DNA from: Rhodospirillaceae bacterium
Lineage (GTDB): Bacteria > Pseudomonadota > Alphaproteobacteria > Bin65
Assembly (NCBI GenBank): GCA_009840595.1
Contig: VXNK01000001.1
Span: 1-64,000, forward strand
DNA: 64,000 bases
Direction: 5' to 3'
In this document: positions 12,685 to 40,726 of the stretch, in pieces
How positions within the stretch are numbered: the stretch's first letter is position 1
How the letters are laid out: every line of letters begins with the position of its first letter
Program-made: the position numbers and the translations under genes
The notes under the pieces: generated by a model
Told to the model about the DNA's origin: nothing
Databases searched by the model: none
The model's input: the letters and a program-made list of their open reading frames with translations, nothing else

Positions 12685-12870
12685 CCGCCGCCGCCCGGCC
12701 GGTGGTGCTGCGTCAGGCCGGCGCCGCACACCCGGATTGCAGCGCCGGGCGGCGCCGGCCCATCCGGAAATTTGAACATTTTCCGCAGCGGGCTATGTTC
12801 TAGGGCGGTTCGGCCGGTCCGCGCCGGGCCGGCGACTGGCCGAACAGGGGAATTGCCCGGGAGCTTTTGC

Positions 12871-13182
12871 GTGGCCATCGACACGATAGATACCGAGGCC
12901 ATGGCGCGCAGTGCCGAAGAGGCCGCGCGGTTCCTGAAGACGATCGGCAATCCGAAGCGCATGCTGATCCTGTGTTATCTGGTGAACTGCGAACGCAACG
13001 TCATGGAGCTCGAGCAGCTGCTCGACGTACGGCAGTCCAGCATTTCGCAGGAACTGGCCCAGCTTCGCCGCAACGGCATGGTCGCGACGCGGCGCCGGCG
13101 CAGAAACATCTACTACCGGATCAGCGATCCCAAGGTCGAATCGATCATCGGCGCCGTCCATCAGGCGTTTTGCAACAGATAA
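12871..13182 (+). CDS. ArsR/SmtB-family regulator, BigR/SqrR/sHdrR-like
   Basis: Winged-helix FLKTIGNPKRMLILCYLV..VRQSSISQELAQLRRNGMVATRRRRRNIYYRI. GTG start with gggag upstream; Cys35 and Cys101 conserved-looking. Confidence 0.8.
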   Translation: MAIDTIDTEAMARSAEEAARFLKTIGNPKRMLILCYLVNCERNVMELEQLLDVRQSSISQELAQLRRNGMVATRRRRRNIYYRISDPKVESIIGAVHQAFCNR

Positions 13183-13326
13183 GCCGGAGTCCCGGCCGCA
13201 AAGAGCGGCTTTTCCTCCGGTCCGGGTACGAATTTGCTTCCAACAACGGCGGTCGCGGCCTAGCATAGAAGTGCAGGATCGGAGCGGATGCGGGTCCGTT
13301 CCGGCGCCGATAAATGGAGGAAGCCC

Positions 13327-13638
13327 ATGAAACAGCTATACGGCCCGGCGGTCGCCGGGCTCGCAGCCGCGGCTTTGATCGCCCTGGCGCCGGCCGGCGC
13401 TGCGGCGGAGTCGTCCGGCCGCAATCTGGCCCTCTCCTGCTTCAGCTGCCACGGCCCTGCCGGCAAGAGCCCGGATACGATCCCGGGGATTGCCGGCAAG
13501 AGCGCGGCCTTTATCGCCCAGGAGATGATCGCTTTCCGCGACGGCAAGCGGAAATCCTCGGTGATGATGCGCATAGGCAAGGGCTACACCGATGCCGAAA
13601 TCAAGGCGCTCGCCGGTTACATTTCCGGCCTGAAATAG
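13327..13638 (+). CDS. fccA: Small c-type cytochrome, flavocytochrome c sulfide dehydrogenase cytochrome subunit-like
   Basis: Signal peptide plus one CXXCH (CFSCH) and C-terminal Met region; immediately precedes fccB-like gene. Confidence 0.7.
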
Positions 13639-13649
13639 GAGTTCGCGAC

Positions 13650-14924
13650 ATGACAACACTGACACGACGCGAATTTGCTGCCGCGGCCGGCGCTTCGGCG
13701 GCTGCGTTTGCCGCGCCTGCCGTAGCGCAGGGCAAGGGCGGCCGGATCGTCGTGGTCGGCGGCGGCTTCGGCGGCGCCAGCGCGGCGAAATACGCCAAGA
13801 TGTTCGGCGGCGCTGCCGTTGAGGTGACGCTGATCGAGCCGAACAAGACCTTCTACACCTGCCCGTTCAGCAATCTGGTGCTGGGCGGCCTGCTGGAGAT
13901 CGGTGCGATCGGGCACGGCTTCGACGCGATGCGCAAGCACGGCGTCAAGGTCGTCCACGACATGGTGACCGGGGTCGACCATGCCAAGAAGACGGTGACG
14001 ACCGCCGGCGGCGCCTCGATCGGCTGGGACAAGCTGATCCTGTCGCCGGGAATCGACTTCCAGTGGGGCAAGATCAAGGGCTACGACGCGGCGGCGGCGG
14101 AAAAGATCCCGCACGCCTGGAAGGCCGGGCCGCAGACCGTCCTGCTGCGCAAGCAGCTCGAGGCGATGGAGGATGGCGGGGTCGTCGTTCTGGCGCCGCC
14201 GGCCAACCCGTTCCGCTGCCCGCCCGGGCCGTACGAGCGGGCCAGCATGATCGCCCACTATCTCAAGACCACGAAGCCGAAGTCCAAGGTCCTGATCGTC
14301 GATTCCAAGGACAAGTTTTCCAAGATGCCCCTGTTCATGGAGGGCTGGAAGAAAGTCTACGGGCCGATGATCGAGTTCATCCCGCAGAAGAAGGATGGCC
14401 CGGTGACCGAAGTGGATGTCGCCAACAACACGGTCATCACCGAGTTCGGCGCCAAGCACAAGGGCGCGGTGGTCAACCTGATCCCGCCGCAGAAAGCGGG
14501 CAAGGTGGCCGATATCGCCGGCGTGACGAGCAAATCGGGCTGGGCGCCGGTCGACCGGCGGACCTTCGCCTCGACGATGCAGAAGGACGTCTATGTGATC
14601 GGCGACGCCTCGATCGCTTCGCCGATGCCGAAGTCCGGCTTCTCGGCGAGCAGCCAGGGCAAGGTCGTGGCTGCCGGGGCGGTCGATTCGCTGGGCGGCA
14701 AGGCCGTGGCCGATCCGTCCTTCGCCAACACCTGCTACAGCCTGGTGGCGCCGGAATACGGCATTTCGGTCGCCAAGGTCTATGCTTGGCAGGGCGGCAA
14801 GCTGGTCGGCGTCAAGGGCTCCGGCGGCGTCAGCCCGAAGGGCGCGCCCGCGAGCTTCCGGGCCGAGGAAGCCCGCTATGCCCGCGGCTGGTACGCCAGC
14901 ATCGCGGCGGACATCTGGGGATAG
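13650..14924 (+). CDS. fccB: Flavocytochrome c sulfide dehydrogenase flavoprotein subunit (FccB/SoxF-like)
   Basis: Tat-like [32 protein letters not shown] motif; [13 protein letters not shown] redox Cys context. Confidence 0.85.
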
Positions 14925-14964
14925 CCCGGCCGGCCGTTTCCCGAACCGGGAACCGCGAGCAAAG

Positions 14965-15014: not shown

Positions 15015-15467
15015 CTACGGCCGGATATAGCTCCAGCCCTGCTCCTGCAGTTCCATCAGGCGCACGACGCCCGAAGGCACCTTTTTCGCCTCGGCGACCA
15101 GCGTGACCGGTTTGCCGGCCTTCTTGCTCATCTTGCGGTGGGTGTTGCCGCAGGCCGAGAAGCGCAGGTCCGGATCGGCCAGACTCATCGCCGCGATGCG
15201 GCTCTTCACCGGCGAGGTATCGGCGCGCAGCATGTGCAGGCCGGGACCGTAGGCAACGATCTCGATCATCACCTTCTCGCCCTTGGCCGCATAATACTTG
15301 CGGACATTCTGGGCGTTGTTGAGCGCCATGTTCATCCGCTTGGTATCCCGGTCGTCGACATGGATCGCCACCTTGTGCACCTTCGCCTGGGCGTGGGCCG
15401 GGGCGAGAGAGAGCGGCGTGACGGCGAGCATCAGGCAGAACGCCAGGGCGGCAGCGAGAGGTTTCAT
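15015..15467 (-). CDS. Secreted DsrE/DsrF-like family protein
   Basis: Signal peptide; VHKVAIHVDDRDTKRMNMALNNAQNV and DLRFSACGNTHRKM typical of periplasmic DsrE-fold proteins. Confidence 0.7.
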   Translation of the reverse strand: MKPLAAALAFCLMLAVTPLSLAPAHAQAKVHKVAIHVDDRDTKRMNMALNNAQNVRKYYAAKGEKVMIEIVAYGPGLHMLRADTSPVKSRIAAMSLADPDLRFSACGNTHRKMSKKAGKPVTLVAEAKKVPSGVVRLMELQEQGWSYIRP

Positions 15468-15522
15468 CTTTCGGTCTCCGTAGTGAATGGATGTTGAGGG
15501 GCCGCGTTCGGCCCGGATGCCG

Positions 15523-16056
15523 CTAGAATTCGAGCAGATCCTGAATCGCTTCGATGCCCTCGACGGCGCAGTCGTGGTCCAGCTTGCCGCCGGGCGCGCC
15601 GGACACGCCGACGCCGCCGACGATCGAGCCCGCCGCCGTAACCCGGACTCCGCCGCCGACGAACAGCGCCTGGCCGATCTGGCGCACGCCGGGGTTGACC
15701 GTGCCGTCCTTGATCAGCCCGTACATCTCCCATGTATCGGTGCGGAACGACACGGCCGACCAGGCCTTGCGCCGCGCGGTCTCGACGGTATGGGCGCCGG
15801 CCAGCCGGTCGCGCAGCGCCACCTGCACGCCGCCGAACCGGTCCGTGACCACGACCGCGACCTGGTAGCCGCCCTTGCGGCAGGCTTCGAGCGTGGCCTG
15901 GGCCAGCGCGAGCGCCGTCTTCGGCGTCATCACCTTGAAGGTCGCCAGCGCCTTGTCCTCGGCGCCGGAGGAGGCCGCAAACGCGCCCGACAGCACCAAT
16001 GCGGCGGCGCCGGCCGCCATCCTCAAGAAACCCGTTCGCAATCGAGACATGGTCAT
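15523..16056 (-). CDS. Secreted GlcG/HbpS (DUF336) family heme-binding-like protein
   Basis: Signal peptide; ALALAQATLEACRKGGYQVAVVVTDRFGGVQVALRD and GGGVRVTAAGSIVGGVGVSGAPGG are GlcG/HbpS motifs; start at internal ATG 16056. Confidence 0.8.
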   Translation of the reverse strand: MTMSRLRTGFLRMAAGAAALVLSGAFAASSGAEDKALATFKVMTPKTALALAQATLEACRKGGYQVAVVVTDRFGGVQVALRDRLAGAHTVETARRKAWSAVSFRTDTWEMYGLIKDGTVNPGVRQIGQALFVGGGVRVTAAGSIVGGVGVSGAPGGKLDHDCAVEGIEAIQDLLEF

Positions 16057-16445
16057 CCTTTCGTCCTGCCCGCCGGGTCGCGTTGTGCGGCCGGCAGCTT
16101 TATCAGCAGCCGCTCCAGAAGCGGCCAGAAGAAGTCTTCGCCCGCATAGCCGACGAGCCGCCCGACCTCCCGGCCCCGGTGCCACAGCACGAAGGTCGGC
16201 GTATAGGCGATGCCGCGGACCGCGCGGTAGGCCGCCGGGACCGTGCGGTCGATATCGATCCGGCGCAGCGGCGCGATCCGGCCGAAGCGCGTCTTGCCAT
16301 AGGCGGGGCCGATCTCCTCGTGCCAGCGCTCGCACCATTCGCATGTCGCCGATTCGAACATCAGCAATTCCGCCGCGCGCGCCGGGGCGGCAGGGAGGCC
16401 TGCGGCAACTGCAACGGCCAGCAGCAAAATGCGGAAATTCGGCAT
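16053..16445 (-). CDS. soxS: SoxS-like periplasmic thioredoxin
   Basis: Signal peptide, CEWC redox motif, YTPTFVLWHRGREVGRLVGYAGEDFFWPLL resembles SoxS of sox clusters; divergent from soxX. Confidence 0.65.
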   Translation of the reverse strand: MPNFRILLLAVAVAAGLPAAPARAAELLMFESATCEWCERWHEEIGPAYGKTRFGRIAPLRRIDIDRTVPAAYRAVRGIAYTPTFVLWHRGREVGRLVGYAGEDFFWPLLERLLIKLPAAQRDPAGRTKG

Positions 16446-16514
16446 CGGTGCCCGCTGATTTTCGCCGGTTTCGCAGGGCGTCACACCCCTCGAACCGGCC
16501 ATTCGGATTAGCGC

Positions 16515-16542
16515 TTGTTAAATTAGAAAGTTTGAATATGAT
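16515..16542 (+). promoter_or_regulatory. Putative sigma70-like promoter of soxX operon with overlapping palindromic operator
   Basis: TTGTTA (16515-16520), 16-nt spacer, TATGAT (16537-16542); spacer holds ATTA-N8-GAAT (16522-16537). Confidence 0.5.
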
Positions 16543-16663
16543 ACCGCAACCCCGGCGGCGGGAAAGACCGGATTTGCGACAACTTTGCGGCTCCGGAACC
16601 GCGCCGGGAGCATCGGCTCCGCCGGCCGGAATGCCGGCGAGCCCCGGTCAGGAGGGCAGAGGT

Positions 16664-17152
16664 TTGAAGTTCGGTCGACGTGTCTTGACACCCCTTTTTG
16701 CAGCCGCGCTCGCGGTCGCTCCGTTCGCCGCGCAGCAGGCTCTCGCCCAGGGCAAGGCCCCGCTGGTCAAATACAAGGTCGTCGACGAAGACAGCATCCC
16801 CAAGTCGCTGACCGGCAAGCCGGGCGATCCGGAAAAAGGCAAGAAATGGGCGATCGCCGGCCGGCTGGGCCATTGCATTGCCTGCCACGTCATGCCGGTC
16901 GACGAGCCGTATATGGGCGAGGTCGGGCCGTCCCTGGTCGGCGTCGCGTCGCGCTACAGCGCCGGGCAGCTCCGGATGCTGATCGTCGATCCCAAGGTGG
17001 TTAACGAAGACACGATGATGCCGGCCTTCTACAAGGCCGATGGATTCCACCGGGTGCGCAAGGCTTTCGTCGGCAAGACGATGTTGAGCGCCGAGCAGGT
17101 GGAAGATATCGTTGCCTACCTCCTGACGCTCAAGGAAGAGGAAAAGCAGTAG
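16664..17152 (+). CDS. soxX: Sulfur oxidation c-type cytochrome SoxX
   Basis: TTG start with GGAGG upstream; signal peptide; CIACH heme motif; GEVGPSLVGVASRYSAGQLRMLIVDPKVVNEDTMMPAFY. Confidence 0.88.
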   Translation: MKFGRRVLTPLFAAALAVAPFAAQQALAQGKAPLVKYKVVDEDSIPKSLTGKPGDPEKGKKWAIAGRLGHCIACHVMPVDEPYMGEVGPSLVGVASRYSAGQLRMLIVDPKVVNEDTMMPAFYKADGFHRVRKAFVGKTMLSAEQVEDIVAYLLTLKEEEKQ

Positions 17153-17209: not shown

Positions 17210-17689
17210 ATGTCACAGACAGAAGTATCCGGCGGCGTGCATCGCCGCAGTTTCCTGATCGCCGCCGGCGCCGGCAGCGCCGCTTTCGCCGCCGCCCAGT
17301 TCGCGCCGGGCATCGCGCTGGCCGACAAGGCGCTGACCGAGCAGGCGATCAAGAAGGTCATCGGCGACAGGAAGCTGATCGAGGGCAGGGTGTCCATCGA
17401 CGGCCCCGAAATCGCCGAGAACGGCAACACGGTCCCGGTCGGCTTCGAGGTCGAGAGCAAGATGTCGGGCGGCGACATGGTCAAGGCCGTGCACGTTTTC
17501 GCCGAAGGCAATCCGCGCCCCGAGGTTGCGAATTTCTGGTTCTCCGCAGACAGCGGCGCCGCCCGCGGCGCGTTCCGGATGCGCATGGCCAAGACGCAGA
17601 ACCTCATCGCCGTGGCCGAAATGGCCGACGGCAAGGTTTATATGGGCAAGCGCCTGGTGAAAGTGACGATCGGCGGCTGCGGCGGCTGA
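17210..17689 (+). CDS. soxY: Thiosulfate oxidation carrier protein SoxY
   Basis: Tat-like HRRSFLIAAG; C-terminal VKVTIGGCGG swinging-arm motif. Confidence 0.95.
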   Translation: MSQTEVSGGVHRRSFLIAAGAGSAAFAAAQFAPGIALADKALTEQAIKKVIGDRKLIEGRVSIDGPEIAENGNTVPVGFEVESKMSGGDMVKAVHVFAEGNPRPEVANFWFSADSGAARGAFRMRMAKTQNLIAVAEMADGKVYMGKRLVKVTIGGCGG

Positions 17690-17764: not shown

Positions 17765-18088
17765 ATGTCACGACCCCGCGTGCGCGTTCCGCGCAAGATC
17801 AAGAAGGGCGACACGGTCACCATCAAGACGCTGATTGCGCACAAGATGGAAACCGGCGTGCGCCGCAACAAGAAGACGGGCAAGCTGATCCCGCGCAAGA
17901 TCATCAACAGCTTCGAAGCCAAGATCGACGGCAAGACGGTGTTCAAGGCCGCCTTGCATCCGGCGGTCTCCTCCAACCCGTATATTTCGTTCGCGATCAG
18001 CCCGAAGAAGAGCGGGAAGATCGATTTCGTCTGGACGGAGGACGGCGGCAAGACCTTCACCAAATCGGCGAAATTCACGGTCGCCTGA
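17765..18088 (+). CDS. soxZ: Thiosulfate oxidation carrier complex protein SoxZ
   Basis: RPRVRVPRKIKKGDTVTIKTLIAHKMETG; directly follows soxY. Confidence 0.93.
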   Translation: MSRPRVRVPRKIKKGDTVTIKTLIAHKMETGVRRNKKTGKLIPRKIINSFEAKIDGKTVFKAALHPAVSSNPYISFAISPKKSGKIDFVWTEDGGKTFTKSAKFTVA

Positions 18089-18137: not shown

Positions 18138-18980
18138 ATGTTGCGTATATCGATCGCTGCGGTCGCCCTTGCGGCGTTCGCCATCGGTGCCGTGTCCGGC
18201 GCCGCGGCAGACGACAAACCGCTCCAGCCTTGGGAGCGGAAGGAAAACCACGTCAAGCCGCCGAAGGGCAGCCCGCTCGACTATCTGGTCTCCGGCTACT
18301 GGTTCCGGACGCCGAAGACCCGGGCGTTGCAGGACGACGATTTCGAGAATCCGGCGTTCCTGTGGGTCGAACAGGCCGAAAGCGAATGGACGACTGTCGA
18401 CGGCAAGGCCGGCAAGTCCTGCTCCAGCTGCCACGATGCGGTCGAGAAGAGCATGAAGGGCGTGTCGGCCCGCTATCCGGTCTACTCCGCCAAGAACAAG
18501 AAGATGATGGCGATCACCCACCAGGTGAACTACTGCCGCGAAAACTACATGAAGGCCAAGAAGTGGAAGTGGGAATCCGACAAGATGCTCGGCATGACTT
18601 CCCTGATCGGTCTGCAGTCGCGCGGTATGCCGGTCAACGTGTCGATCGACGGGCCGGCGAAGAAGTTCTTCGAGGCGGGCGAGAAATTCTACCATCAGCG
18701 CCGCGGCCAGTTCGACCTGGCCTGCGTGCACTGCCACCAGGGGAATTTCGGCATGTACATCCGTGCCGATTTTTTGAGCCAGGGCCACTCCAACGGCTTC
18801 CCGACCTACCGGCTGAAATGGCAGAAGCTGGGCTCGCTGCACCGCCGGTTCCGCGGTTGCAACAACAATATCCGGGCGGTTCCCTACAAGCGCGGCTCGC
18901 CGGAATACACCAATCTGGAGCTGTATCTGGCGTGGCGCGGCCAGGGCCTGAAGGTCGAAGCGCCTTCGGTTCGCCAGTAG
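18138..18980 (+). CDS. soxA: Sulfur oxidation c-type cytochrome SoxA (two heme motifs)
   Basis: Signal peptide; CXXCH motifs CSSCH and CVHCH; RRFRGCNNNIRA Cys-ligand motif. Confidence 0.93.
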   Translation: MLRISIAAVALAAFAIGAVSGAAADDKPLQPWERKENHVKPPKGSPLDYLVSGYWFRTPKTRALQDDDFENPAFLWVEQAESEWTTVDGKAGKSCSSCHDAVEKSMKGVSARYPVYSAKNKKMMAITHQVNYCRENYMKAKKWKWESDKMLGMTSLIGLQSRGMPVNVSIDGPAKKFFEAGEKFYHQRRGQFDLACVHCHQGNFGMYIRADFLSQGHSNGFPTYRLKWQKLGSLHRRFRGCNNNIRAVPYKRGSPEYTNLELYLAWRGQGLKVEAPSVRQ

Positions 18981-19065: not shown

Positions 19066-20751
19066 ATGATTACCCGCCGGGATTTCGCAACGGCCGGCGC
19101 CGCCGCAGCCCTGCTCGCCGGATCGGGTTCGCTGGGCCGGCTGGCCGCGCAGCAGAAGCTGACGCAGGACAAGCTGCTCGCCTTCGAACCGGTCGGGCAG
19201 GTGACCCTGCTGCATTTCACCGATATCCACGCCCAGCTCTCGCCGCTCTATTTCCGCGAACCGTCGGTCAATCTCGGGGTCGGCGCGGTCAAGGGTCTGC
19301 CGCCGCATATCACCGGCGCGGCGCTGTTGAAGAAATACGGGCTGAAGCCGGGCAGCGCGGAGGCATACGCGCTTTCGAACGTCGATTTCGCCCGCCTGGC
19401 GGCGTCCTACGGCCGGCTCGGCGGGATCGATCGCATGGCGACGGCGGTTGAGGCCATCCGCGCCGAACGTCCCGGCAGGACGTTGCTGCTCGACGGCGGC
19501 GATACGTGGCAGGGCGACTATGTTTCGCTGAAGACGCGCGGCGGCAGCATGGTCGAGGCCATGAATGCTCTCGGCGTCGATGTCATGACCGCCCATTGGG
19601 AATTCACCTACGGAACCGACCGGGTGCAGGAAATTGTCGAGGACGAACTGAAATTCCCCTTCCTCGCCGGAAATGTGCGCGATACGGAATGGAACGAGGG
19701 CGTCTTCGAGAGCACGCAGTATTTCGAGCGCGGCGGGCTCAATATCGCCGTTATCGGCCAGGCCTTCCCCTTCACGCCGATCGCCAACCCGCGCCACCTG
19801 ATCGAAAACTGGTCGTTCGGCATCCGCGAAAAGGAAATCCGCAAGACCGTGGCGGCGGCCCGGAAGAAAGCCGACCTGGTCGTTCTGCTGAGCCATAACG
19901 GCTTCGACGTCGACCGCAAGCTGGCGTCGCGGGTCGACGGGATCGACGTCATCCTGACCGGCCATACCCACGATGCACTGCCCGAGGCGGTGCAGGTGCG
20001 CGATACCCTGCTCGTCGCCTCCGGCTCCCACGGCAAATACCTGTCGCGCCTCGATCTGGACGTGAAGAACCGCAAGGTCGCCGGGTTCCGCTACCGGCTG
20101 ATCCCGCTGTTCAGCGACGCCATCGCGCCGGACCCGAAGATGAAGGCGCTGCTCGACAGGCTGCGCGCGCCGCACCGGGCGGTGACGGAGAAGGTGATCG
20201 GCCGGACCGATACGCTGCTCTACCGCCGGGGCAACTTCAACGGCACCTTCGACGACCTGATCTGCAACGCCCTGCTCGAAGAGCGGGACGCCGAGATTTC
20301 CTTGTCGCCGGGTTTCCGCTGGGGCGCGTCGCTGCTGCCCGGGCAGGATATCTCCATGAACGACGTCTACAACCAGACGGCGATCACCTATCCGGCGGCC
20401 TACCGGATCAAATTCACCGGCGCGTTCCTCAAGACCGTGCTGGAAGACGTGGCCGACAACATCTTCAACCCGGACCCCTATTACCAGCAGGGCGGGGACA
20501 TGGTGCGCGTCGGCGGGCTGAATTACGACATCGATGTCGGCAGGAAGATCGGCCACCGCATTTCCAACATGACGCTGATGCGCAACGGCGAGGCGATCGA
20601 CCCGGCCCGGGAATACACGGTGTCCGGCTGGGCCTCGGTCAACCCCGACACAAAAGGCCCGCCGATCTGGGAGGTCGTCGCCGGCTATATCGGCCGCAAG
20701 AAGATCATCACGCAGCCCGCACGCGGAAAGATCCGCGTCAGCGGCGTCTGA
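19066..20751 (+). CDS. soxB: Thiosulfohydrolase SoxB
   Basis: Tat-like ITRRDFATAG; LLHFTDIHAQLSPLYFREPS; GGDTWQGDY...LGVDVMTAHWEFTYG. Confidence 0.95.
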   Translation: MITRRDFATAGAAAALLAGSGSLGRLAAQQKLTQDKLLAFEPVGQVTLLHFTDIHAQLSPLYFREPSVNLGVGAVKGLPPHITGAALLKKYGLKPGSAEAYALSNVDFARLAASYGRLGGIDRMATAVEAIRAERPGRTLLLDGGDTWQGDYVSLKTRGGSMVEAMNALGVDVMTAHWEFTYGTDRVQEIVEDELKFPFLAGNVRDTEWNEGVFESTQYFERGGLNIAVIGQAFPFTPIANPRHLIENWSFGIREKEIRKTVAAARKKADLVVLLSHNGFDVDRKLASRVDGIDVILTGHTHDALPEAVQVRDTLLVASGSHGKYLSRLDLDVKNRKVAGFRYRLIPLFSDAIAPDPKMKALLDRLRAPHRAVTEKVIGRTDTLLYRRGNFNGTFDDLICNALLEERDAEISLSPGFRWGASLLPGQDISMNDVYNQTAITYPAAYRIKFTGAFLKTVLEDVADNIFNPDPYYQQGGDMVRVGGLNYDIDVGRKIGHRISNMTLMRNGEAIDPAREYTVSGWASVNPDTKGPPIWEVVAGYIGRKKIITQPARGKIRVSGV

Positions 20752-20758
20752 GCCGGCC

Positions 20759-21502
20759 GTGCTGGAGGACATCAGCTATCCGGGCGTCCTGCTGGCCGGC
20801 ATCCTGACCTTCCTGTCGCCCTGCATCCTGCCGATCGTGCCGCCCTATCTCGCCTATCTCGGCGGCATCACGCTCGACCAGATCGACGTCGAAGGGCAGA
20901 CCGACCGGGCCAAGGCGCTCAAGGTCTTCCGCGCCGCCTTCTTCTTCGTTCTCGGCTTTACGACGGTGTTCGTCGCCATGGGACTGGCGGCGTCCGCCAT
21001 CGGGCGCTTCGTCGGCGACAATATCGACATTCTGGCGACCGTCGCCGGCATCCTGATCATCGTTCTGGGCCTGCACTTCGTCGGCGTTTTCCGGATCGGC
21101 TTCCTGTTCCGCGAAGCGCGCTTCCAGGTCGACCGCAAGCCGGCGGGCGCGGCCGGCGGCTATGTCATCGGGCTGGCCTTTGCCTTCGGCTGGACGCCCT
21201 GCGTCGGCCCGGTGCTGACCGGCATCCTGATGCTGGCCGCGGGCAAGGAAACGGCGCTGGAAGGCGGCTTTCTGCTCGGCGTCTACGCGCTCGGCATCGG
21301 CGTGCCGTTCCTGGTCGCCGCGCTCTTCGCCGGGGCGTTCCTCCGTTTTATGAAACGCTTCCGCCGCTTCATCCCGTGGGTCGAGCGCGCGCTCGGCGCC
21401 CTCCTCATCCTCACCGGCGTCCTGTTCATCACCGGCTCGCTGAACGAGATCGGCTTCTGGATCCAGGAAGCCTTTCCGGGGCTGGCGAAGCTGGCGGGAT
21501 AG
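20759..21502 (+). CDS. ccdA: CcdA/SoxV-type thiol-disulfide transporter
   Basis: GILTFLSPCILPIVPPYLAYLGG and GWTPCVGPVLTGIL; GTG start; immediately after soxB. Confidence 0.85.
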   Translation: MLEDISYPGVLLAGILTFLSPCILPIVPPYLAYLGGITLDQIDVEGQTDRAKALKVFRAAFFFVLGFTTVFVAMGLAASAIGRFVGDNIDILATVAGILIIVLGLHFVGVFRIGFLFREARFQVDRKPAGAAGGYVIGLAFAFGWTPCVGPVLTGILMLAAGKETALEGGFLLGVYALGIGVPFLVAALFAGAFLRFMKRFRRFIPWVERALGALLILTGVLFITGSLNEIGFWIQEAFPGLAKLAG

Positions 21503-21514: not shown

Positions 21515-22267
21515 CTATCCCAGGTGCAGCCAGATCAGCCGGTCGAAGGAGCGCAATTCGCGCAGGTTGTTGATGACGCGGAGCGCGCTCTTGTCCTTCC
21601 CGGCAAGGATCAGCCGGCGGATCGAATCGAGGCTGCCGTCGAACAGGCGCTTGAAGGCCGGATGGCCGCGTTCGCGCGGGCCCGCTTCGCGCTGGCAGCG
21701 CTCGTACCAGTGCTTCAGCGCGGCAAAGCGCTTGTCCATCTCCGCGACCTGGGCGGCATCGCCGAAGTCCGGCGGTTTCCGGCGATAGGCCCAGGCGCCG
21801 TCCATCGCCCGGTTCATGGCTGCGATGCAGTCGCTGTAGATCCACAGGCCGTTGCGCTTGCGCAGCGCCGCGAGGCGGCCGGCTACCGGCTTGAGGTGCG
21901 CGGCGGCAGCGTCCCTCTCGTCCGCGTCCACGGCGGCGAGGGCGGCGGACAGGGTCTTCGCCACCGCCGCGATATCGCCTTTGACGGCGCCGTCTCCGGC
22001 CAGCTTGCCGGGCGGATTCGCGCCGAAGGCCGCGGATACGGCGGCCCATTTCTCCGTCGCCTCGTCGAGCTCGGCCCCGGCGACCGCCAGATTGCCGGTG
22101 CGCAGGTAGAATTGCGCGAAGCGGACATGCTTCATCGCCGCGCCCACCTTCAGGTGGAAATCGTCGATGCCGCCGGCGAAAGCCGGACCGGCCGGCCCCA
22201 TGAACGAGAGCGCCAGCATCAGGCCCAGAACGGGCCCGGCAACCATCTCGGGGAGCAGCGGTCTCAT
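21515..22267 (-). CDS. Secreted hypothetical protein
   Basis: Signal peptide and intact ORF overlapping the next gene by 4 bp; no recognised family. Confidence 0.6.
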   Translation of the reverse strand: MRPLLPEMVAGPVLGLMLALSFMGPAGPAFAGGIDDFHLKVGAAMKHVRFAQFYLRTGNLAVAGAELDEATEKWAAVSAAFGANPPGKLAGDGAVKGDIAAVAKTLSAALAAVDADERDAAAAHLKPVAGRLAALRKRNGLWIYSDCIAAMNRAMDGAWAYRRKPPDFGDAAQVAEMDKRFAALKHWYERCQREAGPRERGHPAFKRLFDGSLDSIRRLILAGKDKSALRVINNLRELRSFDRLIWLHLG

Positions 22268-25646: not shown

Positions 25647-25676
25647 TTGCCATTCATTCAAAATATTGAATACAAT
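25647..25676 (+). promoter_or_regulatory. Putative promoter with exact ATTC-N8-GAAT operator in spacer
   Basis: TTGCCA (25647-25652), 18-nt spacer, TACAAT (25671-25676); ATTCAAAATATTGAAT at 25656-25671; divergent tusA/HDAC-YeeE-lip intergenic. Confidence 0.55.
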
Positions 25677-32510: not shown

Positions 32511-33211
32511 AGTCGCTCACGGTCATCCAGCATACCTCGGCCGAATATCTCGGCCTGATGGAAGACCATTTCGAAGGCCGGCGCATCCGCTTCACCTACG
32601 TCCGCCCCTTCACCGAAGGCGTGGCGCCGCCGCACCCCGACGCCGTTGCCGACGGCCTCATCCTGCTCGGCGGCGGGCCCTGGGGATCGGCCGGCGCGCG
32701 CGACCTGCCGACCCTCGAGGCCGAAATCGCCGTCGCCCGGACCTGCCTGATGGTCGAGAAACCGGTCGTCGGCATCGGCCTCGGCGCGCAAATCCTGGCA
32801 TTGGCCGCAGGCGGCTCGGTCGAGGCGGCGCCGCTGCGCTTCACCGTCGATACGGCGCTGCGTTGCATGGAGGAGGCGCTGAACGGCTATCTGCCCGAGT
32901 CCTGGCCCGTCGCCGTCTACGGCCGCGACCGGGCCGTGCCGCCGGATTATGCGCAGGTCCTGGCACGCGCCGGCGACGGCGAGCCGGCGCTGTGGCAGAT
33001 CGGCGGCAATGCGTTCGGCTTCGCCGGCCATCCCGGCCTCAAGGTCGCCATGGTCGAGGACCTGATCATGGAATTCGAGGAGGCGCCCGCCGATCCGGCG
33101 CCGGCCCTGCGCGATCTCCGCGCCGCCCAGCGCGCCATCGAGGATGCGCTGGTGCCGATCATGACCGGCCTCGTCCAGCTGACCGGCCTGATGCAGCCGG
33201 GCGGAGAATAG
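32507..33211 (+). CDS. Class I glutamine amidotransferase-like protein lacking the catalytic Cys
   Basis: LLGGGPWG, VVGIGLGAQILALAAGG; the usual GxCxGxQ nucleophile Cys is Gly91 (GGC 32777-32779). Confidence 0.75.
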   Translation: MKSLTVIQHTSAEYLGLMEDHFEGRRIRFTYVRPFTEGVAPPHPDAVADGLILLGGGPWGSAGARDLPTLEAEIAVARTCLMVEKPVVGIGLGAQILALAAGGSVEAAPLRFTVDTALRCMEEALNGYLPESWPVAVYGRDRAVPPDYAQVLARAGDGEPALWQIGGNAFGFAGHPGLKVAMVEDLIMEFEEAPADPAPALRDLRAAQRAIEDALVPIMTGLVQLTGLMQPGGE

Positions 33212-34020: not shown

Positions 34021-34782
34021 ATGGACCACGGCGCCGCCACCCGCGTGCAGGAGCATATCGGCGATCCGGTTTCGGACGCGCCGCCGCTCGACCGCGACGC
34101 CCTGGAAGAGATTTTCGGCGATATCCAGGCCGACCTGCGCTACGACCACGAACTCAACGGCTGCCTGAACTGCGGCATCTGCACGGCGACCTGCCCGGCG
34201 GCCCATTATTACGATTTCAGCCCGCGCGAGATCGTCCAGCTGCTCTGGACGGAAAATCTCGAGGGCATCTACGACGCGATGCAGGAAAAGATCTGGGCCT
34301 GTGCCCAGTGCTACACCTGCGCGGCGCGCTGCCCGTTCGGCAACAGCCCCGGCGGCCTCGTCATGCTGATGCGCGAGGTCGCGATCAAGCACGGCATGGA
34401 GTCGGCGAAGAATGTGCTGCGCCCGTTCAGCCGGGTCATGCTCAAGCTGATCTCGACCGGCAACCAGCTCGCCCCGGACATGATCAATCCGGACCATTTC
34501 GCCGACTGGGGGCCGAACATCGCCAAGGTGGATGCGCCGCTCAAGCTGCTGCGCAAGGCGATCCCGATGCCGACGCTCAACACCACGGCGACGGCCTGGG
34601 AGGTCAATCTGAAGACCTCGGTGGAGCTTTACACGATCTGGGAAATGACCGGCGTGCTCGACCAGCTCGAAGGGATCGACGAGAATCTGTTCGACGTCAT
34701 TACCGACATCATGGACGAGAAGCGCGAGGACTGGGAAGACTTCCTTGAAGAGCAGGAAGACGAGGACGAAGACGACGACTGA
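34021..34782 (+). CDS. hdrC1: sHdrC1, heterodisulfide-reductase-like iron-sulfur subunit
   Basis: Two 4Fe-4S motifs CLNCGICTATCP and CAQCYTCAARCP; acidic tail EEQEDEDEDDD. Confidence 0.88.
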   Translation: MDHGAATRVQEHIGDPVSDAPPLDRDALEEIFGDIQADLRYDHELNGCLNCGICTATCPAAHYYDFSPREIVQLLWTENLEGIYDAMQEKIWACAQCYTCAARCPFGNSPGGLVMLMREVAIKHGMESAKNVLRPFSRVMLKLISTGNQLAPDMINPDHFADWGPNIAKVDAPLKLLRKAIPMPTLNTTATAWEVNLKTSVELYTIWEMTGVLDQLEGIDENLFDVITDIMDEKREDWEDFLEEQEDEDEDDD

Positions 34783-34817: not shown

Positions 34818-36212
34818 ATGACCGGCACACCGAACGATACCGGGAACGCTTCGGGCGAAAGCGGCGAACGCTTTACCGGACACGGCAGCGAATGGCGCGA
34901 TGCGAACCTGTCGGCGCAGGACGCGCGCACCGCCACCGCTTGGGTCGAGGCCAAGGTCGACAAGCGCTCCATGCTGACGAACAAGGATCGCGTCGAAGAC
35001 GTGCGCGATATCATGTGGCAGCTGGAGAAAGATGGCGAGATCGCCGTCCACCGGGTCGACGACGGCCATGCGCCGGTCGAGGTCAAGACGCTCTACGGCT
35101 GGACCAAGCGCATCCCGACGACCCGGCTCTGGCATCACAAGTCGTGCGGCCAGTGCGGCAACATTCCGGGCTACCCGGCCTCGCTGCTCTGGCTGATGAA
35201 CGAACTCGGCATCGAATATCTCGACGAGACCGACCAGACCTCCTGCACCGCCTGGAACTATCACGGCTCGGGCATCGGCAATCTGGAGAGCCTGGCCGCG
35301 GTCTTCCTGCGCAATTTCCACCAGGCCTATGTCAGCGCCCGCGCCCAGGGCCTGCCGGACGCCTACTACTATCCGCTGGTCCATTGCGGCACGTCGTTCG
35401 GCAACTACAAGGAGGTGCGCCACTATCTGCTGCACTCCGCCGAGTTGCGCGAGCGGGTGAAGAAGATCCTCGCCAAGCTCGACCGGCTGGTCGACGGTAA
35501 GCTGCTGATCCCGGAAGAGGTCGTGCACTATTCGGAATGGGTGCATGTCATGCGCGACCGCATCGCGGACCGCCAGACGATCGACGCCAGCGCCATCCGC
35601 GCGACCATCCATCCGGCCTGCCATGTCTACAAGATGGTGCCGGAGGACGCGATCTACGACGACGACATCCTGGAGGGGAACCGGGTCGCGGTCTCGACCG
35701 GCGTGATCGGCGCGCTGGGCGCCCAGGTGATCGACTATTCGACCTGGTACGATTGCTGCGGCTTCGGCTTCCGCCACATCATCTCGGAGCGCGAGTTCAC
35801 CCGCTCCTTCGCGATCGACCGCAAGGTCAAGGTCGCGGTGGAGGAGGCCCGGGCCGACGTGATGATCGGCCACGACACCGGCTGCATTACGACGCTGGAC
35901 AAGAACCAGTGGATCGGCAAGGCTGCCGGCAAGGACTACGACCTGCCGATCCTGGCCGACTGCCAGTTCGCGGCGCTGGTCTGCGGCGCCCATCCGTTCA
36001 AGATCGTCCAGTCCCACTGGCACGCCTCGTCGACCGAGACGCTGATGGAGAAGCTGGGCATCGACTGGCGCGCGGCGAAGGCGGAGTTCGAGGCCTATCT
36101 CAAGCAGGTCGAAGCCGGCGACCAGGAGAATCTCTACGATCCGCGCCTGATGATCACCTCGGGCCCCGGCTTCAAGCGGATAGAGAACGGAACACTCGAG
36201 ACGGGCACATGA
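34818..36212 (+). CDS. hdrB1: sHdrB1, heterodisulfide-reductase-like CCG-domain subunit
   Basis: WYDCCGFGFRHI, HDTGCITTLDKNQWIG, HPACHVYK; position between hdrC1 and hdrA. Confidence 0.85.
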   Translation: MTGTPNDTGNASGESGERFTGHGSEWRDANLSAQDARTATAWVEAKVDKRSMLTNKDRVEDVRDIMWQLEKDGEIAVHRVDDGHAPVEVKTLYGWTKRIPTTRLWHHKSCGQCGNIPGYPASLLWLMNELGIEYLDETDQTSCTAWNYHGSGIGNLESLAAVFLRNFHQAYVSARAQGLPDAYYYPLVHCGTSFGNYKEVRHYLLHSAELRERVKKILAKLDRLVDGKLLIPEEVVHYSEWVHVMRDRIADRQTIDASAIRATIHPACHVYKMVPEDAIYDDDILEGNRVAVSTGVIGALGAQVIDYSTWYDCCGFGFRHIISEREFTRSFAIDRKVKVAVEEARADVMIGHDTGCITTLDKNQWIGKAAGKDYDLPILADCQFAALVCGAHPFKIVQSHWHASSTETLMEKLGIDWRAAKAEFEAYLKQVEAGDQENLYDPRLMITSGPGFKRIENGTLETGT

Positions 36213-37258
36213 CCAAGCCGGTCCTCGTGGTCGGCGGCGGCCCGGCCGGGCTCGCCGCAGCCGAGGCGCTGTCCGGCGTCGGCCGGAACGCCGTTCTGGT
36301 GGAGAAGGAGGACCGGCTCGGCGGCGCGCCGATCCTCTCCGGCTACGCCAAGCTGGTGCCGACCGGGGAATGGGCGAAGGACGCCATAGGCGGCATGGTC
36401 GCGCGGGTCGAAGGCGACGCTACGGTCGATGTCCGGACCGGCTGCACCGTGCAGGAATTCGGCGGCGAGCCCGGCGCGTTCGCGGCGACCCTGTCGGACG
36501 GCGCCACGGTCGAGGCTTCGGCCGCCATCCTGTGCACCGGCTTTACCCATTTCGATTCGGTCAACAAGCCGGAATGGGGCTTCGGCAGCTTCCCCGACGT
36601 CGTGACCACGACCCAGGTCGAGCAGATGATCTCGTCGGGCGCCGGCGTGCGCTGCCCGTCCGACGGCCGCACGCCGAAGCGGGTGGCGATCTTGCTCTGC
36701 GTCGGCTCGCGCGACCGCCAGATCGGCCGCGAATGGTGCTCCAAGATCTGCTGTACGGTGAGCGCCAACATCGCGATGGAAATCCGCGAGGAAGTGCCGG
36801 ACTGCCACGTCTACATCTACTACATGGATATCCGCACCTTCGGCCTCTACGAGACGAGCTACTACTGGCGCAGCCAGGAGGAGTTCAAGGTCAAGTATAT
36901 CAAGGCGCGGATCGCCGAGGTGACCTCGGACGGCGAACGGCTGATCGTCAAGGGCGAGGACACGCTGGTCAAACGGCCGATCACCATTCCCTTCGACATG
37001 GTCGTCCACGCCATCGGCATGGACCCGAACGTCGATAACCTGCTGCTGTCTTCCATTTTCGGGGTCGACCTGGAGCCGCACGGCAACATTGCCCGGCAGT
37101 CGGCCTATGGCGGCATGGGGCGGACCAGCCGGCCCGGCGTGTTCGTCGCCGGCGCGGCGACCGGGCCGGAGACCATCGACGATTCGATCGCCCAGGCGAA
37201 TGCCGCGGCCATCGCGGCGCTCGGCGCCGGCCGGGCGGCGGCGGACGAAGCGGCCTGA
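36209..37258 (+). CDS. hdrA: sHdrA, heterodisulfide-reductase-like flavoprotein
   Basis: VLVVGGGPAGLAAAEALSGVGRNAVLVEK, LCVGSRDRQIGREWCSKICC, DDSIAQANAAA. Confidence 0.9.
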   Translation: MTKPVLVVGGGPAGLAAAEALSGVGRNAVLVEKEDRLGGAPILSGYAKLVPTGEWAKDAIGGMVARVEGDATVDVRTGCTVQEFGGEPGAFAATLSDGATVEASAAILCTGFTHFDSVNKPEWGFGSFPDVVTTTQVEQMISSGAGVRCPSDGRTPKRVAILLCVGSRDRQIGREWCSKICCTVSANIAMEIREEVPDCHVYIYYMDIRTFGLYETSYYWRSQEEFKVKYIKARIAEVTSDGERLIVKGEDTLVKRPITIPFDMVVHAIGMDPNVDNLLLSSIFGVDLEPHGNIARQSAYGGMGRTSRPGVFVAGAATGPETIDDSIAQANAAAIAALGAGRAAADEAA

Positions 37259-37262: not shown

Positions 37263-38126
37263 ATGATGGCGCACGCCCTGCGCGGGACGGCGGGACGGGA
37301 CGAGCCGGTCCCCGAGCGGCCGGAGCTGCATCTCTCCGGCCCGCGTCTGCGCCAGGCGCTGGAAAGCCTGATCGCCGGCAGCGAGGAGCAGGGCGGCGTC
37401 GAGCGCTATGTCGATGCCGTGAAGCTCAAGGCCTCCGCATTCGGCGACGCCCTCGCCGGCGGGGCGGCCGGCCTGAAGCCCGCGGCGTTCGGCGAACTCT
37501 GCGCCCTGATGCCTTCGGTGCGCCGGCGCATCGGGCCCTATCTCGACCGGAAGGGTTTTGCGACCGTCTGCACGGCAATCGACGCGTTGCTGGACGGCAG
37601 GACCGATACGACGACGACCGACGCACGGCTCGCCGCCTTCGAGGGCGCCTTTCCGCGCGACCGGGACCATCGCTGGGTGCGCGACCTGGCGGCCGAACTG
37701 CTGCACAACCTCGACCCGGAGCGCTATCCGCCGATGCAGCGCTGGGTCTGGGACGCCAAGACCAACACCGGCGTGCTGCGCGAGATCTGGTGGGGCGACG
37801 ATGTCGACCACATCATGATCGACGTGCCGGACAGCTACGGCGCCTTCGTCATGCTGCGCGAGGAACTGTCGCAATTCTTCACGGAAAACGGCGTGTTCCG
37901 GGACATTCTCCAATATGTCGATCTGCTCCTCGCCCATGTCTACGCCGCCTATATCGGCGAGCAGGGCGGACAGTATCTGCGTACCGATTTCGCGACGCCG
38001 GAAGATCCGATGCTGCACACCCGCCGGATGCTCGGGCTGGACGGCGTCGGCGCCAGGGGCCGGACGAAGCCTGCCGCGGTGGACGGCGACGCGCGGCCCG
38101 TCGGCGCCCCCAGGCTGCTCAACTAG
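37263..38126 (+). CDS. sHdr-cluster conserved hypothetical protein ('hyp')
   Basis: Located between hdrA and hdrC2 as in known shdr clusters (C1-B1-A-hyp-C2-B2). Confidence 0.8.
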   Translation: MMAHALRGTAGRDEPVPERPELHLSGPRLRQALESLIAGSEEQGGVERYVDAVKLKASAFGDALAGGAAGLKPAAFGELCALMPSVRRRIGPYLDRKGFATVCTAIDALLDGRTDTTTTDARLAAFEGAFPRDRDHRWVRDLAAELLHNLDPERYPPMQRWVWDAKTNTGVLREIWWGDDVDHIMIDVPDSYGAFVMLREELSQFFTENGVFRDILQYVDLLLAHVYAAYIGEQGGQYLRTDFATPEDPMLHTRRMLGLDGVGARGRTKPAAVDGDARPVGAPRLLN

Positions 38127-38139: not shown

Positions 38140-38886
38140 ATGCCGATCCACGAACAGTCGCTGATCCGGCCGGAGAATATCCGGACTCACGACAACCTGG
38201 TGCTCGACGGCGTCGACGTGTCCGGCCACTGGTCGACCTTCATCGAGCCGCGGGTCGTCACCGACTACAACGAGGCGCTGGAGGACGAGATCGCGGCGCT
38301 GCCCGGCGGCGAATATATCCACCGCTGCTGGCAATGCGGCTCCTGCACCAACTCCTGCACGGTCAACGCCGTCAACCCGGACTTCAACCCGCGCTACTGG
38401 ATCTACCTGATCCGCATGGGCATGGAATCCGAGCTGCTGCGCGACAAGGACATCATCTGGCAGTGCGTCTCGTGCAACAAATGCACCTACGCCTGTCCGC
38501 GTGACGTCGAGCCGGAAGGGGTGATGAAGGCGACCGCGCACTGGCTGGAGAAGAAGGGCCATACGCCGAAATCGCCCTCGATCATTTTCGACGAGATTTT
38601 CGCCGAACAGGTGATCGCGCGCGGCAAGATCGAGGAATCGTCCATCATTCGGACGTTCCTCAAGCGCACCGGCCAGCCGCTGATGCAGGACTGGCTGATC
38701 GCGATGGCGCGCAGCCTGATGATGAAGCTGCCCATCGGCCTGATGCGGCGCATGGGCCTGGCCGTGCTGTTCCGGCCGCGCACCGCCGGCTGGTCGAAGG
38801 CGCGGGCGGCGCTCGAAGACTATGTCGAGGAATGCGAACGCGAACAACGCCGGGCGCTCGGCCTGGGCAACGGGAAGCCGGAATGA
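38140..38886 (+). CDS. hdrC2: sHdrC2, heterodisulfide-reductase-like iron-sulfur subunit
   Basis: CWQCGSCTNSCTV and CVSCNKCTYACPRDVEPEGVMKA. Confidence 0.9.
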   Translation: MPIHEQSLIRPENIRTHDNLVLDGVDVSGHWSTFIEPRVVTDYNEALEDEIAALPGGEYIHRCWQCGSCTNSCTVNAVNPDFNPRYWIYLIRMGMESELLRDKDIIWQCVSCNKCTYACPRDVEPEGVMKATAHWLEKKGHTPKSPSIIFDEIFAEQVIARGKIEESSIIRTFLKRTGQPLMQDWLIAMARSLMMKLPIGLMRRMGLAVLFRPRTAGWSKARAALEDYVEECEREQRRALGLGNGKPE

Positions 38887-39815
38887 GCGAAGAACGGAAA
38901 TACGACCGCGTCGCCTACTATCCCGGCTGTGCGCTGGAAGGCACCGGCCATGCCTACAACCGCTCGACCAAGGCGGTCGGCAAGGCGCTCGGCCTGAAGC
39001 TGGACGAGGTGAAGAACTGGAACTGCTGCGGGGCGATGGAGGTCAAGAATATCGACCCGAAGATCCAGACCTACCTGTCGTCCCGGGTCATGTCGATCGC
39101 CGCGAACGAAATGGGCCACGATGTCGTCATGGCGCCGTGCAACGGCTGCTACCACAATCTCAAGAAGGCCGAATACGACCTGGAGCACGACGGCAAATCG
39201 CGCGAGGTCGTCGACCGCCTGTCCTCCAAGGCCGGCCATGAAACCTACGAGGCCGGGCAGGTCGAAACCATCCATGCCCTCGACTGGATCAAGGACGGGA
39301 TCGGCGAGGACGGCCTGAAAGCCAGGGTCAAAAACAGCCTGCAAGGCGTTAAAATCGCGAACTATTACGGTTGCATGTACACGCGGCCGCGCCACATCTT
39401 CCCGGAGAAGGACGCCGGGCCGGGTTCGGAATCGACATCCGAACCGCACTTCATGGACGACCTGCTGGCCGCGGCCGGCGCCGAGAATGTCGATTTCCCG
39501 CTCAAGACGGCCTGCTGCGGCGGCGCGCACACGCTCTCGGACAGCGACATCTCGACGAAACTGGTGCTGAACATCCTCGAAGCCGCCGAGGCCGCCGGCG
39601 CCGACGTTATCGCCACGGAATGCCCGACCTGCCATTCCGGGCTCGAAATGCACCAGATCCGCGCCGAAAAGCGGCTCGGCCGGAAAACGACGGTGAAAAT
39701 CCTCTATTTCACCCAGCTGCTCGGCGTCGCGCTGGGCCTCAGCCCGCGCAAGGTCGGCGTGCACGAGAATGTCTCCGACTCGCGCGGTTTCCTGAAGGAA
39801 AAGGGCCTGGCATGA
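38883..39815 (+). CDS. hdrB2: sHdrB2, heterodisulfide-reductase-like CCG-domain subunit
   Basis: YYPGCALEGTGHAYN, NWNCCGAMEV, APCNGCYHNL, TACCGGAH, TECPTCHSGLE. Confidence 0.92.
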   Translation: MSEERKYDRVAYYPGCALEGTGHAYNRSTKAVGKALGLKLDEVKNWNCCGAMEVKNIDPKIQTYLSSRVMSIAANEMGHDVVMAPCNGCYHNLKKAEYDLEHDGKSREVVDRLSSKAGHETYEAGQVETIHALDWIKDGIGEDGLKARVKNSLQGVKIANYYGCMYTRPRHIFPEKDAGPGSESTSEPHFMDDLLAAAGAENVDFPLKTACCGGAHTLSDSDISTKLVLNILEAAEAAGADVIATECPTCHSGLEMHQIRAEKRLGRKTTVKILYFTQLLGVALGLSPRKVGVHENVSDSRGFLKEKGLA

Positions 39816-40285
39816 CGCCGTTCGCCGACATCGAAGCGGCGCTCGACGGTTTCGATTCCGCCCGAATCGATGCCGGGGAGGGCGATCCAGCCGGCCGCCT
39901 GCTCGGTCTGGCTGAGATGGTGCTGGAAAACTGGATCAAAGCCCGCGACGAGGCGCCGACCGCGGACGAGCGCGAAGGCTTCCGCCTGCTCGCCCTGCAC
40001 CGGCAGGGCGCGCGCGGCGAACCCAGCTTCAACGCGTGCCGCGAAACCTGCCGCGAGATCGCCTACCACGCCAACCTGCTGCGCCTGGAACCGGACCATG
40101 ACGAAACCGGCCGCCGCGCGGCCATGATGGCGATGCTGGTGCGCCATCTCCTGCTTTTCGTCTCGGGCAAAATGCAGGTTGCGGGGCTGGGCGAATTTTG
40201 CTGTTCATCGCGCGGCTTGCGCTCGCTCGATCGGGACGCAGCCCAAGCACCTGAATACACGCCCGAATTGACGAAGGTTGCCTGA
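39812..40285 (+). CDS. Hypothetical protein between shdrB2 and lbpA
   Basis: 157-aa ORF translationally coupled to hdrB2; Cys-containing segments NACRETCREI and GLGEFCCSSRGLRSLDRD. Confidence 0.75.
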   Translation: MTPFADIEAALDGFDSARIDAGEGDPAGRLLGLAEMVLENWIKARDEAPTADEREGFRLLALHRQGARGEPSFNACRETCREIAYHANLLRLEPDHDETGRRAAMMAMLVRHLLLFVSGKMQVAGLGEFCCSSRGLRSLDRDAAQAPEYTPELTKVA

Positions 40286-40288
40286 TCC

Positions 40289-40726
40289 ATGCCGACTGTC
40301 CGTGGATGCCATCTGCCCGACGACCTGCTCTACGACGTGCCGAACCATATCTGGTTCACCGAAACCGGCGACGGCAACCTGCGTCTCGGCATGACCAGCG
40401 TGGCGACGGCGATGGCGGGCAATCTGGTCGCCTTCACGCCGAAGAAGGTCGGCCGGTCGGTCAAGGCCGGGCGGTCCTGCGCCACCGTCGAATCCGGCAA
40501 ATGGGTCGGCCCGGCCAAGTCGGCGGCCGGCGGCGAGGTCGTCGAGGTCAACGACGCGCTGGTCGAGGAGCCGAGCCTGGCGAACCAGGACCCGTACAGC
40601 GCCTGGATGGTCGTGCTCCGGCCGGACGACTGGGACAGCGTGAAGCCGACCCTGACGCCAGGCACCGACGTCGCTGCGGCCTACGAAGCCAAGATGGACG
40701 AGGACGGCTTCGCCGGCTGCGAGTGA
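40289..40726 (+). CDS. lbpA: Lipoate-binding protein LbpA (GcvH-like)
   Basis: GcvH fold with lipoyl-Lys context CATVESGKWVGPAKSAAGGEVVEVND; end of shdr operon. Confidence 0.88.
   Translation: MPTVRGCHLPDDLLYDVPNHIWFTETGDGNLRLGMTSVATAMAGNLVAFTPKKVGRSVKAGRSCATVESGKWVGPAKSAAGGEVVEVNDALVEEPSLANQDPYSAWMVVLRPDDWDSVKPTLTPGTDVAAAYEAKMDEDGFAGCE

Follow-up and report, generated by a model that had tools for sequence, protein, structure and literature searches.

The window analysed here, a stretch of 64,000 nucleotides from a Rhodospirillaceae bacterium (contig VXNK01000001.1), carries within 28 kb an island of sulfur-oxidation genes that joins sulfide dehydrogenase (fcc) and sox genes to lipoylation (lip) genes and to the shdr and lbpA genes of the cytoplasmic sHdr-LbpA route. 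The island is a known pathway in a known layout with one conserved extra component, hdac (25746-26903), the first gene of the operon hdac-soxT-lipS1-lipT-lipS2-sLpl-lipX, predicted to encode a zinc-dependent acyl-lysine hydrolase of the histone deacetylase (HDAC) family. It is hdac, not the compact arrangement, that merits attention; the gene list of a first-pass annotation, made from the sequence alone, contained neither hdac nor lipX (32507-33211). The gene groups which that annotation did name (fccAB, soxXYZAB, tusA, a YeeE transporter, lip genes and dsrE-shdr-lbpA) were all recovered, with profile searches and gene models in agreement and the gene models supported by codon-position GC. The features are as follows.

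12901-13182, plus strand: ArsR-family repressor, BigR/SqrR/SoxR-like persulfide sensor (HTH_5; BigR model 87.5 bits, cut-off 155)
13288-13638, plus strand: fccA, c-type cytochrome with CxxCH (Cytochrom_C)
13650-14924, plus strand: fccB, flavocytochrome c sulfide dehydrogenase flavoprotein (FCSD_central and FCSD-flav_bind)
15015-16502, minus strand: three genes between fccB and soxX, for a periplasmic DsrE-like protein (without Pfam match), an HbpS-like haem protein and a SoxS-like thioredoxin
16053-16502, minus strand: the SoxS-like periplasmic thioredoxin with CEWC (assigned by motif and context; no Pfam match)
16522-16537: degenerate ATTCAA-N4-TTGAAT palindrome with 2 mismatches, upstream of soxX
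16631-17152, plus strand: soxX (TIGR04485, 77.1 bits, cut-off 61)
17210-17689, plus strand: soxY with C-terminal GGCGG (TIGR04488, 139.1 bits, cut-off 125)
17765-18088, plus strand: soxZ (TIGR04490)
18138-18980, plus strand: soxA (TIGR04484)
19066-20751, plus strand: soxB (TIGR04486, 824 bits)
20759-21502, plus strand: ccdA/DsbD-TM, SoxV-like (DsbD_TM)
21515-23154, minus strand: hypothetical exported protein and alpha/beta hydrolase, overlapping by 4 nt; the pair is kept between ccdA and soxW in sponge-type relatives
23272-23943 and 23955-24524, plus strand: two SoxW-type thioredoxin-fold proteins (Thioredoxin_2)
24781-25227, minus strand: 148-aa protein adjoining tusA (no Pfam or NCBIfam match)
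25280-25504, minus strand: tusA, divergent from the hdac-lip operon (TusA, 84.6 bits)
25656-25671: perfect palindrome ATTCAA-N4-TTGAAT, putative operator in the divergent tusA/hdac promoter region
25746-26903, plus strand: hdac, predicted HDAC-family (class I/AcuC-like) zinc acyl-lysine hydrolase (Hist_deacetyl, 217.6 bits)
26932-27990, plus strand: yeeE/soxT, sulfur transporter, between hdac and lipS1 (Sulf_transp, 221 bits; TsuA 6leo, E 5.3e-19)
27990-29054, plus strand: lipS1, radical SAM lipoyl synthase part 1 (LipS1 model, E 7.5e-51, below cut-off)
29051-30133, plus strand: lipT, FAD-dependent oxidoreductase (geranylgeranyl reductase superfamily, 170 bits)
30130-31455, plus strand: lipS2, radical SAM lipoyl synthase part 2 (LipS2 model, E 1.7e-54, below cut-off)
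31452-32510, plus strand: sLpl(AB), lipoate:protein ligase (LplA-B_cat; LplB model at the C-terminus)
32507-33211, plus strand: lipX, class-I glutamine amidotransferase-like (GATase; name after PMC10332631)
33645-33998, plus strand: dsrE3, sulfurtransferase (DrsE_2)
34021-34782, plus strand: shdrC1 (HdrC models)
34818-36212, plus strand: shdrB1 (HdrB, CCG)
36209-37258, plus strand: shdrA (6tjr, E 4e-186)
37263-38126, plus strand: hyp, the H gene of the type I shdr core (conserved position; no Pfam match)
38140-38886, plus strand: shdrC2 (Fer4 domains)
38883-39815, plus strand: shdrB2 (two CCG stretches)
39812-40285, plus strand: conserved orf between shdrB2 and lbpA (syntenic in other loci)
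40289-40726, plus strand: lbpA, lipoate-binding protein with ESGKWVGPAK (GCV_H)

The downstream flank (41135-44849), consisting of an AAA_14/DUF4143 ATPase gene on the minus strand followed by a dimethylglycine/sarcosine dehydrogenase-like fusion with a GCV_T domain (42459-44849), lies outside the sulfur island.

Consecutive genes from lipS1 to lipX have 4-nt overlaps, yeeE overlaps lipS1 by a single base, and the gap between hdac and yeeE is 28 bp; because of this spacing, hdac-yeeE-lipS1-lipT-lipS2-sLpl-lipX looks like a single transcription unit. The linkage of hdac to the lip genes was followed in 66 loci that had either a linked hdac or 1.2 kb or more of sequence upstream of lipS1. In 44 of these 66 loci, hdac preceded lipS1 on the same strand at no more than 4.5 kb, and in 5 it lay elsewhere in the locus; it directly adjoined lipS1 in 34, in loci from several orders and with gaps of -68 to +140 bp (start choice by script). 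In the clade of the window itself, yeeE fills a gap of about 1,085 bp between the two genes. Among the window's own genes, hdac was the one most often found within 2.5 kb upstream of lipS1 (41/65), followed by tusA (24). Regarding loci in which lip and shdr genes lie apart (no shdr within 10 kb on either side), hdac remained with lip in L023, L045, L047, L051, L055, L062, L064, L078 and L086, and their genomes hold shdrB1 elsewhere. In two further genomes, those of loci L030 and L033, hdac was found next to a lipS1 (L132 and L136, respectively), the lipS2 first found in them having no lipS1 within 10 kb.

Similarity to HDACs proves nothing by itself, as these proteins are common: of 385 evenly drawn genomes of the class, 66 contained an HDAC at E<=1e-60 and 10 contained lipS1, and HDAC similarity alone was rejected as a phylogenetic profile. 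Only the tree separates a lip-type from an other-type group. All 23 HDACs sampled from lipS1-negative genomes and 11 second copies from lip genomes formed one clan, whereas all 48 linked and 11 unlinked HDACs of lip genomes fell outside it (SH-like approximate likelihood ratio test 100; about 35 weaker HDACs from lipS1-negative genomes are left out of this tree). In a more careful tree without outgroup, with the groups taken from the first tree, the split was supported by 100/99. The lip-type subfamily has its own C-terminal (C/S)DLxD motif and occurred in 23 of the 27 genomes reached via LipS2 loci; the source genome encodes one lip-type and one other-type HDAC. Adjacency and subfamily together tie hdac to the lip genes. 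As a separate observation, the other-type HDAC gene of the source genome lies on the same strand as lipA, the gene for the canonical lipoyl synthase, at a distance of about 1.4 kb (G000:C108:49974-53256, L175); a general link between HDACs and lipoylation through lipA was rejected as coincidence, since lipA was near an HDAC gene in only 3 of 40 stretches, two of them from this genus.

The AlphaFold model of the HDAC (pLDDT 90.4) matched best to HDLP of Aquifex aeolicus (1c3p/1c3r; TM-score 0.89, 32% identity), which was also the best match by sequence. Aquifex is a sulfur oxidiser of the sHdr type. The zinc ligands D171, H173 and D254, the pair H134-H135 and Y293 were invariant in 26 sequences, and the catalytic motifs, reading GGTHH with GGGGY, were kept in 59/59 lip-type proteins. 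With the fold, the zinc ligands, the His-His pair, GFC and the GGY tyrosine, everything that marks a classical zinc-dependent deacylase was found, and the enzyme looks catalytically intact. Strict bacterial deacetylases carry RPPxHH (PMC11532494), whereas an open foot pocket is found in the acyl-promiscuous AcuC (GGGLHH, GGGY) and in the de-decanoylase VcHdaH (SGGYHH, GGGY) (Graf et al., PMC11532494). The lip-type proteins had the open foot-pocket pattern in 59/59 cases and not the RPPxHH/XGGY of strict deacetylases. With Bacillus subtilis AcuC (cluster 2 of the classical deacylases) and HDLP, the protein shares the class I fold, the zinc and His-His/Tyr machinery and GGxHH plus GGGY; it is 32% identical to HDLP and belongs to a separate, lip-associated subfamily. 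Positions separating lip-type from other-type HDACs did not map clearly onto the acyl pocket and gave no prediction of chain length.

The intergenic region between the divergent tusA and hdac genes contains the palindrome ATTCAA-AATA-TTGAAT without mismatch. In the window, 3 matches at up to 2 mismatches were counted against 0.49 expected, one of them upstream of soxX; this count is not an independent test, because the motif was picked after viewing the intergenic sequences, and conservation is the better evidence. The palindrome was intact in 5/5 sponge-type relatives with a readable region; loci further removed had a weaker copy or none. The ArsR protein, graded BigR/SqrR-like only as it scores below the BigR equivalog cut-off, has Cys25 and Cys91 at the same spacing (66) as Cys50 and Cys116 of SoxR (PMC10451225). 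The Hyphomicrobium denitrificans SoxR binds 4/5 fragments tested, the tested set including fragments upstream of lipS1 and dsrE3C (PMC10451225). This putative persulfide sensor probably controls the operon via the palindrome before hdac.

SoxX, SoxY, SoxZ, SoxA and SoxB all scored above the NCBIfam cut-offs. A search of the whole genome, which is 98% complete, recovered neither dsrA nor a SoxC above cut-off (best relative 198.7, cut-off 420; SoxD was not searched), so the Sox system is probably truncated and sHdr-LbpA the likely cytoplasmic route. The YeeE protein has the features of SoxT, i.e., a length of about 350 aa (352), a Sulf_transp domain and three conserved cysteines (C28, C102 and C314), which align with the Cys positions of TsuA. 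The syntenic shdrC1B1A-H-C2B2 core with lbpA corresponds to the type I sHdr-LbpA system as defined in PMC11582611. The sHdrA sequence matched the solved structure 6tjr at E 4e-186 and methanogen HdrA at E 2e-52. We take 6tjr to be the sHdrA of H. denitrificans (the molecule name in the record is generic); these matches place sHdrA with the proteins of sulfur oxidisers. A tree was built from 54 GcvH-like proteins, taken from the comparison loci and 12 genomes, and in it LbpA separated from GcvH as two clans with support 100; ESGKWVGPAK was present in 41 of 43 LbpA sequences, whereas GcvH has ESVK. The genome has its own GcvH on another contig, lipA elsewhere, and a second LplA/B-fold protein.

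Regarding the lipoylation genes, lipS1, lipS2 and slpl(AB) occur together, as in the sLpl(AB)-LipS1/S2 pathway. The expected profiles were found for the ligase (LplA-B_cat) and for LipS1 and LipS2; the scores of the latter two are below the NCBIfam cut-offs, and therefore their assignment also leans on operon context and on LipS2 being 74-97% identical to LipS2 from other islands. The reading put forward in the first-pass annotation, a truncated Sox system followed by a cytoplasmic type I sHdr-LbpA route with dedicated lipoylation genes, is thus secure. Its further statement that the sulfur relay can be read in gene order did not hold in this simple form, since tusA is divergent on the minus strand; further genes inside the island are also on the minus strand (those for the periplasmic DsrE-like protein, the HbpS-like protein, the SoxS-like thioredoxin and the alpha/beta hydrolase). 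The locus is predicted to be a type I lip-sHdr-LbpA-Sox island, and the bacterium carrying it a facultatively sulfur-oxidising member of the Alphaproteobacteria near sponge-symbiont Rhodospirillaceae metagenome-assembled genomes (MAGs). By LipS2 (95-97% identity), the closest loci were those of the Rhodospirillaceae bacterium MAGs CO36386bin_9, Spongia_Bin9 and bin65 and of one Alphaproteobacteria MAG; the name Spongia_Bin9 suggests a sponge, and the link of related MAGs to sponge hosts is one that we infer from record titles and background knowledge.

Among the 80 LipS2-bearing loci of the comparison set, sox, tusA, lip and shdr-lbpA genes were joined in several (e.g., L014, L044 and L061). 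In L019, L020, L027, L032, L039, L068 and L070 (several of the Robiginitomaculum type, one Solirhodobacter), lipX-shdr-lbpA was divergent from lipS1-lipT-lipS2, and the two halves are therefore separable modules. The Hyphomicrobiaceae loci L036 and L038 carry lipS1-lipT-lipS2-sLpl, dsrE3 and lbpA with no shdr genes nearby; L036 also has tusA, with dsrE3 at 14.9 kb and lbpA at 15.4 kb, and its genome yielded no shdrB1 at E<=1e-40 and no lip-type HDAC.

In H. denitrificans, soxT1A, shdrR, lipS1-lipT-lipS2-slpl(AB)-lipX, dsrE3C-shdr-lbpA2, tusA, soxT1B, soxR and sox are found in one region (Hden_0678-0706; PMC11582611, PMC10451225). Common to both loci are lipS1-lipT-lipS2-slpl(AB)-lipX, dsrE3C-shdrC1B1AHC2B2-hyp-lbpA2, tusA, soxT, sox and an ArsR repressor in one island (PMC11582611, PMC10451225, PMC12423496). 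The compact single-locus arrangement, singled out in the first-pass annotation together with its regulator and transporter, is hence not new, being published for H. denitrificans and recurring in other Alphaproteobacteria; the regulator is the ArsR protein at the fcc end, and the transporter lies within the lip operon. Relative to H. denitrificans, the window adds fccAB, has tusA divergent from the lip operon and soxT inside it, and places hdac at its head, whereas shdrR precedes lipS1 in H. denitrificans. The described sLpl(AB)-LipS1/S2 pathway (PMC10332631) uses the same enzymes and has the same 4-nt overlap (GTGA/ATGA) at lipS2/slpl/lipX as the window; its components are lipS1, lipS2, slpl, lipT, lipX and lipY, and the main text is without any deacylase. 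No deacetylase or amidohydrolase in a lip-sHdr setting was found in published main texts or by literature searches, an absence that is provisional as supplements and subscription journals were not covered. An HDAC-family enzyme in a sulfur-oxidation island has apparently not been described before.

The explanation that we consider fairly probable combines a lip-sHdr-LbpA-Sox island under ArsR control with a lip-linked, intact HDAC hydrolysing acyl-lysine in lipoate assembly. By analogy, FccAB would oxidise sulfide and truncated Sox would oxidise thiosulfate, both in the periplasm; sulfane sulfur bound to SoxY would be imported by SoxT/YeeE and passed via TusA and DsrE3 to sHdr, which with lipoylated LbpA would oxidise it to sulfite, LbpA being lipoylated by sLpl(AB) and LipS1/LipS2. 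The HDAC would hydrolyse acyl-lysine amides, most likely freeing octanoate or lipoate from acylated proteins, either in LbpA turnover or by scavenging from lipoyl proteins made by LipB/LipA, and the freed acid would then be used by sLpl(AB) to load LbpA. Three points favour such supply or recycling: the substrates of sLpl(AB) are restricted to free octanoate or lipoate (PMC10332631), hdac is probably transcribed together with the lip genes, and the HDAC has an open-type foot pocket. De-acylation of LbpA or of the ligase is the other role that would fit action on acyl-lysine in lipoate assembly. Removal of lipoyl from lysine, the chemistry proposed here, is described for the bacterial lipoamidase CobB (PMC5596343); CobB is a NAD-dependent sirtuin, whereas the protein of the window has a zinc-dependent HDAC fold and its lipoamidase activity is only proposed. 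In its most specific form, that a zinc-dependent HDAC-family lipoamidase/de-octanoylase is a conserved part of LipS1/LipS2 assembly in sulfur oxidisers, feeding sLpl(AB) or resetting LbpA, the proposal is plausible and tentative.

Several points weigh against these proposals. The activity of the HDAC is a predicted one, and binding of the ArsR protein to the palindrome is likewise inferred. The GGxHH/GGGY pattern is common to other-type HDACs too and is therefore permissive, not diagnostic for octanoyl or lipoyl substrates. In part of the loci hdac is not beside lip, the linkage sample is weighted to close relatives and MAGs, and of the 7 genera with lipS1 in the even class sample only 3 had the lip-type HDAC, so that, set against 23/27, it is frequent and not universal. 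In H. denitrificans shdrR stands before lipS1, and the pathway can thus run without hdac at that position.

The main rival, possible though rather doubtful, sees the HDAC as a lysine deacetylase of the AcuC kind, regulating the adenylate-forming sLpl(AB) or unmasking the lipoyl lysine of LbpA by removal of acetyl groups, with lipoyl and octanoyl groups left untouched. The class I fold and complete catalytic machinery would suit this role, and AcuC activates AcsA through deacetylation of the lysine in RSGK (PMC11532494), which the ESGK of LbpA resembles, in contrast to the ESVK of GcvH. Against this rival, the resemblance may be due to chance, the island showed no acetyltransferase gene, and the foot pocket has the open-type motif instead of RPPxHH. 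Somewhat improbable, too, is that the locus as a whole is no more than an ordinary lip-shdr-lbpA-sox island of the Hyphomicrobium type: it agrees with the published locus (PMC11582611, PMC10451225) in gene content and order, and similar islands occur in other MAGs, yet fccAB is added, the transporter differs in position and hdac is missing from published descriptions. It is unlikely that the HDAC merely shares the operon while acting on a small molecule or an unrelated protein (e.g., in acetylpolyamine or acetoin-type metabolism). The diverse substrates of bacterial HDAC-family enzymes and the loci with hdac away from lip would agree with this, whereas the separate subfamily tied to lip genomes, the 34 direct adjacencies in loci from several orders and the retention of hdac with lip when shdr is elsewhere argue against it, and polyamine-type specificity was not indicated. 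Finally, the GCV_T-domain dehydrogenase just downstream notwithstanding, there is practically no chance that the Hdr-like and LbpA genes encode methanogen-type Hdr and GcvH unrelated to sulfur oxidation, given the 6tjr match, the LbpA/GcvH split and the separate GcvH described above.

For the island itself the value of the analysis is confirmatory, the window providing a complete sHdr-LbpA thiosulfate pathway in sponge-associated Alphaproteobacteria. No account of the origin of free octanoate or lipoate for sulfur oxidisers was found in the literature. An HDAC that heads the operon and belongs to a subfamily specific to lip-bearing genomes suggests that these acids are released from acyl-proteins, or else that the HDAC acts as a regulatory switch for LbpA or its ligase; native-gel shift and mass spectrometry, already in use for LbpA, suit an assay of the HDAC. 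If either is true, this would be, as far as the literature shows, the first HDAC-family enzyme tied to bacterial lipoate metabolism, and if the enzyme is a lipoamidase or de-octanoylase, the lipoylation of LbpA would be reversible. The HDAC could fill a gap in the pathway by supplying, removing or regulating the lipoic-acid cofactor.

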